Shown piece after piece: positions 13,210-18,035 of a stretch of DNA of 64,000 nt. Position numbers and translations under genes: made by a program. This DNA comes from Atribacter laminatus (GTDB taxonomy: Bacteria; Atribacterota; Atribacteria; Atribacterales; Atribacteraceae), in the NCBI RefSeq assembly GCF_015775515.1, contig NZ_CP065383.1, forward strand, positions 1,798,001-1,862,000. The letters are read 5' to 3'. Positions within the stretch are counted from its first letter, which is position 1. Every line of letters begins with the position of its first letter. Under the pieces are notes generated by a model. The model made no database searches, was not told the DNA's origin, and was given only the letters and a program-made list of their open reading frames with translations.

Positions 13210-13759
13210 TTTTTATCCCCTTTCGGTTGGTGTATATGCTATTAATGCTTTTATTGTAGCAGATATTAAATGTGAAAAGACACGGACTTGTATCTTAAGA
13301 AGACTGAGGGGGCAAGGAGCATCCTATACGACGTGGCAATCTCATTGAGCCATTCTTTCATCCTGAGGAGGGTGGCGTTTTTTACCGAACATGGTGAGCA
13401 TCTCATTTATTCCATTTCCACAATTCCACACATAATAAAAGATGATTCAAGAGATTGCCACGACCTCAAAAAATGAGGCCTCGCAATGACGACTCAAAGT
13501 TCCTTCTCCCTTGATGGGAGAAGGTGAGGATGAGGGTAAAAACCAAGATTCGACATGCCATGGCATGTCGCTACGTTAATCGAACGCAATTTATTGCGCT
13601 CCTCCAATTTTTAATTCTTTGGTAGGAGCTTGATTGATCATACCCGTGTATTTTCAGGATAGAAACTTAAAGGTTGAAAGGGCAATAGCTATTGAATTAT
13701 AATAACCATCTATGTCTTTTTTAAAAGCTTTTCTTTTTTCTGAGGAGGACTACAAAACA
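13210..13759. repeat. Intergenic repeat cluster with composite element copy (forward)
   Basis: The gap holds 'GACGTGGCAATCTC'-type and 'TCCTGAGGA'-type repeat pieces (13325-13400), a 'GAGATTGCCACG ... CGCAATGACG' copy (about 13449-13489), the TTCTCCC/GGGAGAA repeat (about 13501-13538) and a forward composite element (about 13540-13661) with a perfect 20-bp palindrome at 13551-13570. A short ORF at 13288-13476 runs through these repeats and is not a gene. Confidence 0.75.
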
Positions 13760-15610: not shown

Positions 15611-15655
15611 TAAAATGGTTATATTACTTAAAATGTAAAAAGGAGTGTGTTGAAG

Positions 15656-16168
15656 ATGAAAACAATAATCAAGCTCCTTTGGTTGGCTTTAGTTTTTATC
15701 GTTCCGTTAGGAAGTTTTTCATCAGCTTGGTCTCAAAATCAAACCCAATTAGAAGATTTTCAGCTCAATGACTTTACACTAAGGACATTGGATGGTCAAG
15801 AAATTACTTTAAGTAAATTAACTGGAAAACCAGTCATGGTTACCTTTTTCTTGACAACCTGTTCTCACTGCCAAGCTGAAAGTGCAGCTCTGAATGTGGT
15901 TTATAATAAATATCATGAATCAAAGGAATTCCAGCTCATTGCAATTGCACCGCGAATGGATAGCAGAGAGAATTTGGTGAAGTTCATTGATGAATACCAA
16001 ATCACTTACCCAATTCTTCATGATCAAGAGAATCAGGTGATAAAACTTTATGGGGTGATTGCAGTTCCCCATAATATTTTTATAGATCGAGAGGGAAGGG
16101 TGAAAAGAGTCATAACCGGAGGAGTTGATCTGGTGACTTTAGAAGAATCTCTTGAGGAATTATGGTAA
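15656..16168 (+). CDS. Secreted TlpA/AhpC-family thiol-disulfide protein
   Basis: 170 residues from ATG 15656 (AGGAG 10 nt upstream; GTG 15647 and TTG 15650 are possible alternatives). An N-terminal signal peptide (1-26) precedes a thioredoxin fold with CSHC (Cys69-Cys72) in a FFLTTCSHCQAES context and a cis-proline loop (GVIAVPHNIFID). Such proteins reduce or exchange disulfides outside the cytoplasmic membrane, or act as peroxiredoxins. The CxxC centre favours a TlpA/ResA-like reductant. Its stop codon abuts the T-run of the convergent candidate RNA gene at 16167-16306. Confidence 0.88.
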   Translation: MKTIIKLLWLALVFIVPLGSFSSAWSQNQTQLEDFQLNDFTLRTLDGQEITLSKLTGKPVMVTFFLTTCSHCQAESAALNVVYNKYHESKEFQLIAIAPRMDSRENLVKFIDEYQITYPILHDQENQVIKLYGVIAVPHNIFIDREGRVKRVITGGVDLVTLEESLEELW

Positions 16169-16306
16169 AAAAAATGCGGATACCAACAAACCTATTTGCA
16201 TATTAGCTATAAAACGGGAACTCCTCATCTCCACCCCTCCCATAACAACTTTAGAGATTATCCCGCAAGAAGCAAATGCAAAAAATCAGTTTCTCGGTAT
16301 CCGCAC
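16167..16306 (-). ncRNA. Candidate structured small RNA with own promoter and U-tract
   Basis: On the minus strand, a strong extended -10 (TGGTATAAT, 16322-16314) predicts a start at about 16306, exactly where a long rod-like fold begins. Pairings seen: TGCGGATACC / GGTATCCGCA (16305-16296 with 16184-16175, 10 bp); TTTGCAT / ATGCAAA (16282-16276 region with 16201-16195); CGGGA / TCCCG; ATCTC / GAGAT; and a purine-rich apical loop (GGGAGGGG). The closing stem is followed directly by eight T (16174-16167). Predicted length about 132-140 nt. The rod with internal loops recalls 6S RNA in outline, but I recognise no family; SRP RNA signature bases are absent. A 101-codon plus-strand frame over it (16152-16457) lacks a start site and is rejected. 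Confidence 0.7.
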
Positions 16307-16313
16307 AATTTAT

Positions 16314-16342
16314 ATTATACCATATTTTTATTTTTTCAATAA
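16314..16342 (-). promoter_or_regulatory. Extended -10 promoter of the candidate RNA
   Basis: TATAAT (16319-16314 on the minus strand) preceded by TGG, giving the TGnTATAAT extended -10 form. The -35 region is poor (TATTGA or TTATTG at 16-17 nt), as is common when an extended -10 is present. Confidence 0.65.
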
Positions 16343-16472
16343 TACAAAAAAATATTTTTTAAATGCTAATAATAGGTTTAAAAGTAGCTTGATTTATTTC
16401 GATCTACCAATAAAGCACCATGCCCTCTCATACCGAAACTCACGTTTTGATCCTTAAATACACTTTAATCTT

Positions 16473-17429: not shown

Positions 17430-18035
17430 TTACTGGAGTTGGGACCAGCGGACTTTCCAGGGTATGAGCACGGAATCAATGGTATAGATGTTTCCATTAA
17501 TGGTTTCATAAGCATCACGAAGAAATTCTGCGTTTATTTCACTTAATCCTGGAGCATCATTTATTGCTAACAAAACCTTAGGGTCTTCTTTACTTTTCAT
17601 CAAAAACATAGTTGATCCACTTAAGAGCGTTTTTAAGGTGAGTTTACTTCCTGGGAGATCTCGCCAGGTGATTCGATAAGGAACCAGATGATAGGTGAGA
17701 ATAGCAGCAAGTATGGAGCGATTTTCCGGATTAAAAAGTGCTTCAAAGGTTTTTTTAGATAAATTTTTAAAAGCATCATTGTTTGGAGCAAAAATAGTTA
17801 TATCGTTCGCTTCTTTCAGAGAATTGAAAAGGCCAGCCTTATCGATGAGTTGCAGTAAAATGGTAAAATTTTCATCGGTAGCTAAAACATCAACCATATT
17901 GGTTTCAATCCTTTGAGTAGATGGGTTAAATCTACGGTTACGGCTAAAGGCTAAAGGAGAAGCGAACGAGAAATGAATCAAGAGGATTAACACGATAAAA
18001 ATTAACGAAATTGGAGAATATCTTTGTTTGGTCAT
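17430..18035 (-). CDS. Secreted fasciclin (FAS1) domain protein 1
   Basis: 201 residues: signal peptide (1-26), then one FAS1 domain of about 140 residues. FAS1 hallmarks are the H1 motif DITIFAPNNDAF, the central YHLVPYRI, and a final INGNIYTIDSVLIP. FAS1 domains mediate adhesion or ligand binding outside the cell. It is the most diverged of three FAS1 genes in the window; the others are at 40650 and 41364. It stands alone, divergent from tex. No anchor segment or lipobox is visible, so the protein is exported or periplasmic. Confidence 0.92.
   Translation of the reverse strand: MTKQRYSPISLIFIVLILLIHFSFASPLAFSRNRRFNPSTQRIETNMVDVLATDENFTILLQLIDKAGLFNSLKEANDITIFAPNNDAFKNLSKKTFEALFNPENRSILAAILTYHLVPYRITWRDLPGSKLTLKTLLSGSTMFLMKSKEDPKVLLAINDAPGLSEINAEFLRDAYETINGNIYTIDSVLIPWKVRWSQLQ

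Follow-up and report, generated by a model that had tools for sequence, protein, structure and literature searches.

The minus strand of the window, by which the whole 64-kb stretch of Atribacter laminatus DNA analyzed here is meant, almost certainly carries at positions 16167 to 16306 a genuine RNA gene that belongs to a multi-copy family of small RNAs, the members of which share a helix (the handle) formed from the two ends of the RNA. In the explanation favored here, to which a probability of roughly 0.6 is given as a whole, the gene would encode a stand-alone handle RNA with a predicted partner shared by the family and an interior serving as the effector of its subfamily. A multi-copy RNA family that runs through a whole order and has no homologue above threshold in the catalogue suggests that this poorly studied phylum possesses an undescribed RNA–protein system; within the phylum, A. 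laminatus RT761 has been brought into pure culture and RNA-sequenced (PMC7736352).

Structure and conservation of the gene

The predicted transcript starts near 16306, 7 nt downstream of an extended −10 element, TGGTATAAT (16314..16322, minus strand), which is invariant in five genomes, as is a weak −35-like TTGAAA at 16334..16339 on the same strand; because the spacer between TTGAAA and the −10 measures only 14 nt, promoter function probably depends on the extended −10. The RNA would end at an intrinsic terminator of its own, a U8 tract at 16167..16174 (minus strand), giving a length of about 133 nt plus the Us (about 133–140 nt), in agreement with the first-pass annotation, which had proposed an independent small RNA of about 135 nt with an extended −10 promoter and an eight-U tail. 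Within the handle, the interior (16193..16287, minus strand) folds into a rod of further helices that is specific to this subclass and found in this genus only, and its apical loop holds the Shine–Dalgarno-like GGGAGGGG (16234..16241, minus strand), invariant in the genus alignment.

The 140-nt sequence folds at −53.2 kcal/mol, as against −31.3 ± 3.3 kcal/mol in dinucleotide shuffles (z = −6.6), with 0/200 shuffles folding as well, and this, together with the promoter, the U8 tract and the conservation described below, bears out the earlier call of a structured RNA gene on the minus strand. The same annotation had seen no protein frame here. No small ORF is credible: the one with a good Shine–Dalgarno sequence begins at the AUG of a GGAGAUG in the GGGAGGGG loop and runs past the handle before it reaches a stop codon in 5/5 genomes, and a minus-strand small protein was rejected on that ground.

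The gene is flanked on one side by an Fe–S protein gene and on the other by a convergent TlpA/thioredoxin-like gene (15647..16168, plus strand, from the ORF list), which lies outside the RNA except that the end of the U8 tract overlaps its stop codon by two bases. Elsewhere in the window a fasciclin (FAS1)-like secreted protein is encoded at 17430-18035 on the minus strand, fasciclin-domain proteins being reported among the most expressed genes of RT761 (PMC7736352), and the intergenic positions 13432-13663 hold a dispersed non-coding repeat with 76–90% matches to repeats near several other loci of the genome (L046, L106, L107 and L110).

By DNA similarity the RNA has one full-length copy in its own genome and is present in 5/6 genomes of the genus, the sixth being a 75%-complete assembly. 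Its identity to the four other genus genomes is 87–91%, compared with 91–100% for the promoter, 73–79% for intergenic DNA past the promoter and 83–87% for tlpA, and its DNA pattern also matches named records of Candidatus Atribacteria; blastn matches in two further genomes (G026 and G030) were discarded, as they cover promoter-like or A/T-rich DNA only. In one relative (G003, L054:4617-4916) the TlpA-like gene appears to be frameshifted next to an intact RNA, possibly through an assembly error. The five sequences of the window subclass are 95% alike and show no pair that has changed on both sides, so the interior of this subclass is without covariation support of its own. In the wider family covariation is strong, and there the conservation of paired bases on which the first-pass annotation had made its proposal depend was found.

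The handle and the family that carries it

A covariance model of the window RNA (R1) returned weak full-length matches elsewhere, in which both ends were common and the middle was not. Two further subclasses were modeled without including any window-subclass sequence: a second one of about 128 nt plus tail (model R2), first seen in nine genomes (all six of the genus plus three more) and having 12 pairs with compensatory changes among five sequences, and a third one of 150–190 nt (model R3). When the whole window was searched with filters off, 16167-16306 on the minus strand ranked first of the 64 kb, both strands included, with either model (43.9 bits with R2 and 32.1 bits with R3), and both aligned the window RNA along its entire handle; with R2 the antisense strand of the RNA scored 21.0 bits, as against 43.9 for the sense strand. 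When run as local scans, the two models picked up ordinary terminators of the window as well.

The R2 search gave about 75 loci, and R3 found matches in 25/25 genomes of the window's order and in 0/25 phylum genomes that belong to other orders. Its search of about 336 genomes from other phyla produced two weak hits only (G272 and G305, about 20 bits), both of which were rejected as having no handle, while several other partial hits of this model are members cut by contig ends. The covariance search in relatives, which the first-pass annotation had suggested, recovered a wider family across the 25 genomes of the order. The window genome has at least nine members, starting on contig C1 at 1012210, 1342549, 1781467, 1814167 (the window RNA), 1961896, 2086738, 2424959, 2428111 and 2446840; up to nine copies were counted per genome, these numbers being minima because most genomes are fragmentary and several members lie at contig ends.

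In 73 distinct members the handle consists of 13 bp, a 1x1 G.G mismatch and 5 bp, built from the two ends of the RNA. The start of the window RNA at the base of a closing stem had been correctly foreseen, but the stem is this interrupted helix rather than the 10 bp first proposed; its 5′ strand, GUGCGGAUACCGA-G-AAACU (16288..16306, minus strand), was assigned from the family handle and the R3 alignment and has the mismatched G at 16293, and its 3′ strand (16174..16192, minus strand) has the opposing G at 16187. The mismatch is G.G in 73/73 distinct members, a set that is itself selected for G.G, because handle-containing models found most of the members and 39 of the 73 were positioned by a script with a small G.G bonus; the ends chosen by this script coincide with the boundaries given by the models. 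Outside the 73, a member with G.A in place of G.G was also seen (L229). With the mismatch position scored as unpaired, 93% of the handle cells form standard pairs, compared with 30–57% when one strand is slid by 1–3 positions. Compensatory changes on both sides are numerous across the 73 members, as at position 5, where the pairs are G-C in 51, A-U in 11, C-G in 7 and G-U in 4, and the mismatch is flanked by a near-fixed pattern, GAGRAAY / GUUYGUU, with conserved wobble pairs.

Outside the handle, almost every unit has a promoter before it and a T-tract after it. Of 54 upstream regions, 85% have at least 9 of the 12 promoter consensus bases, as against 7% of shuffles, and the three poorest promoters belong to second units in tandem transcripts; past the handle, five to seven of the next seven bases are T in most members. 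The window RNA, too, has a promoter directly before its handle and a T-tract directly after it. Between the two strands of the handle, the interiors vary, some being rods and others three- or four-way junctions. The neighboring genes are unrelated and differ from locus to locus, and no common partner gene was seen beside the family members.

Some members occur in particular arrangements. Tandem pairs of different handle RNAs, apparently arranged head to tail, uninterrupted by a terminator and seemingly cotranscribed, occur in five genomes from a single family (L122:4324-4650, L152/L184 in G020, L047:6585-6814, L048 and L118), although the units of G020 are on separate contigs and for G010 the first unit was read at its end only; tandem units carry a complete handle each. 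In the closed genome G012, a near-identical 2.7-kb duplication (L113, G012:C1:1667000-1682000) with one handle RNA per copy lies beside CRISPR-DR2 arrays. A link with CRISPR was considered and dropped, as the other members scanned had no clear array next to them.

Proposed mode of action and alternative explanations

The model of a shared partner is drawn from the common handle, the variable interior, the promoter that each unit has of its own, the unrelated neighbors and the complete handles of the tandem units. According to it, the window gene, which has at least eight paralogues in the genome, would encode a structured small RNA that stands alone and acts in trans; its handle is the predicted binding site of one partner common to all handle RNAs, most likely a protein, which would protect these RNAs and keep them in an RNP, with the variable interior as the working part (effector) of each subfamily. 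Taken alone, the binding of the handle by a shared partner and the effector role of the interior are proposed tentatively. In the window subclass the rod would present GGGAGGGG in its apical loop, which may be suited to pyrimidine-rich targets or to the anti-Shine–Dalgarno sequence of the ribosome; any such target is speculation. Wider still, and to be taken as possible rather than probable, is the proposal of a modular RNP system in the Atribacteria, with Dictyoglomi-1 (discussed below) as an outlying member, in which an invariant G.G handle, bound by a single dedicated RNA-binding protein, would be combined with interchangeable interiors of different functions in numerous small RNAs, almost every one of them having a promoter of its own.

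Several other explanations have to be weighed against this one. The resemblance to 6S RNA noted in the first-pass annotation could mean that the gene encodes a second 6S-type RNA, which would imitate an open promoter and so bind RNA polymerase. Some bacteria have two 6S RNAs, and the 6S RNA (RF00013) and the window RNA have in common that both are rod-shaped, here a long rod with internal loops, and predicted to be independent transcripts with a promoter and a terminator of their own. They differ in that RF00013, which occurs in most of the phylum, is found in this genome at a separate site (C1:2858079-2858235). At the window RNA no Rfam family matched at threshold, in keeping with the earlier impression of a sequence that matches nothing known, and when the stretch was scanned permissively, a single weak match, put down to chance, was returned, but no 6S up to E = 10. 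Moreover, the feature common to the family is the terminal handle, whereas its interiors include three- and four-way junctions besides rods, so kinship with 6S RNA has to be given up as very unlikely.

Of much the same low standing is the idea of a regulatory antisense or 3′-end element of the convergent TlpA-like gene, which is suggested by the 3′ end of the RNA abutting the tlpA stop codon. Eight more members in the same genome have unrelated neighbors, however, the promoter, the U tail and the scores of both models favor the minus strand, and in one relative the tlpA frame is apparently broken and the RNA 91% conserved, which makes this reading highly improbable.

The same degree of improbability attaches to a MITE-like, non-autonomous mobile element, the terminal inverted repeats of which would mimic a handle. 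In its favor are the common ends around different interiors and the near-identical dispersed copies in the A. laminatus genome; but the ends covary as base pairs rather than being constant, the unit copied in these near-identical members includes 80–130 bp of promoter-side DNA outside the repeats, promoter and T-tract stand at fixed places, and one locus has been retained in 5/6 genus genomes.

Several GGA motifs in the apical part would fit a sponge RNA titrating CsrA, yet CsrA (PF02599) was found in 0/6 genus genomes as against 14 other relatives, and one GGA is not conserved, so that the window RNA is taken not to be a CsrA sponge, a reading of negligible probability that is contradicted unless a divergent CsrA exists. 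That the six genomes of the genus (G000–G005) yielded no CsrA, although it is common elsewhere in the order, is also an observation in its own right. A Y RNA whose terminal stem is bound by a Ro60-type protein, which has the same plan of a base stem as binding site and a variable apical module, is just as remote, since TROVE proteins, and with them Ro60 as handle partner, were found in 0/50 genomes of the phylum and no Y-RNA family appeared among the permissive Rfam matches of the members; this contradicts membership, although the same role could fall to some other protein.

Relation to known systems

The RNPs of Y RNA and Ro60 thus offer for the favored model, that of a handle RNA with a shared partner, a comparison of working only: in both a handle made of the paired ends would be combined with a variable module at the tip, and the sequence of the Y RNA handle differs from that of the Atribacteria. 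A closer relation is suggested for the Dictyoglomi-1 motif, described in 2010 as a probable RNA with an uncertain regulatory role (Weinberg et al. 2010, PMC2864571); in the literature nothing was found on its function or on small RNAs of the Atribacteria.

The corresponding Rfam family, RF01703, is the best Rfam match for the first unit of a tandem in G017 (20.8 bits, E = 0.013, 361 nt), the second unit matching more weakly. It has to be noted that 20.8 bits is the best score of any member from the Atribacteria, as against a gathering score of 150 bits. A search of 386 genomes with RF01703 gave strong matches in G127 and G269, from one other genus, presumably Dictyoglomus. An RF01703 genome search under strict filters neither recovered the handle RNAs nor gave any match over cut-off in the phylum; nor were they picked up when 20 trimmed members were scanned permissively, and the R2 search did not find Dictyoglomi-1. 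As the strict and the permissive RF01703 scans were negative, the link is drawn from the G017 match, the G127 sequences and the ranking by R3, which places two G127 Dictyoglomi-1 loci first, at 25.2 and 24.8 bits and in the correct register.

The G127 loci have a TTGATT/TATAAT promoter, followed by CCACAGGCAUCAA-G-GGG ... CC-G-UUGAGCCUGUGG and then a T-tract, so that Dictyoglomi-1 and the handle family have the same layout of promoter, handle and T-tract, with a G.G at nt 14 in both. The 3′ strand of the handle reads GUCCGUUGA in Dictyoglomi-1 and GUUCGUUGG here, the Dictyoglomi-1 handle has one bulged nucleotide, unlike that of the Atribacteria, and its interior is unrelated in sequence to the Atribacteria members. 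Judged from these sequences, the two very probably have a handle in common and would then share a probable common origin, without the Atribacteria RNAs being members of RF01703, and the orphan Dictyoglomi-1 RNA gains its first proposed relatives outside Dictyoglomus.
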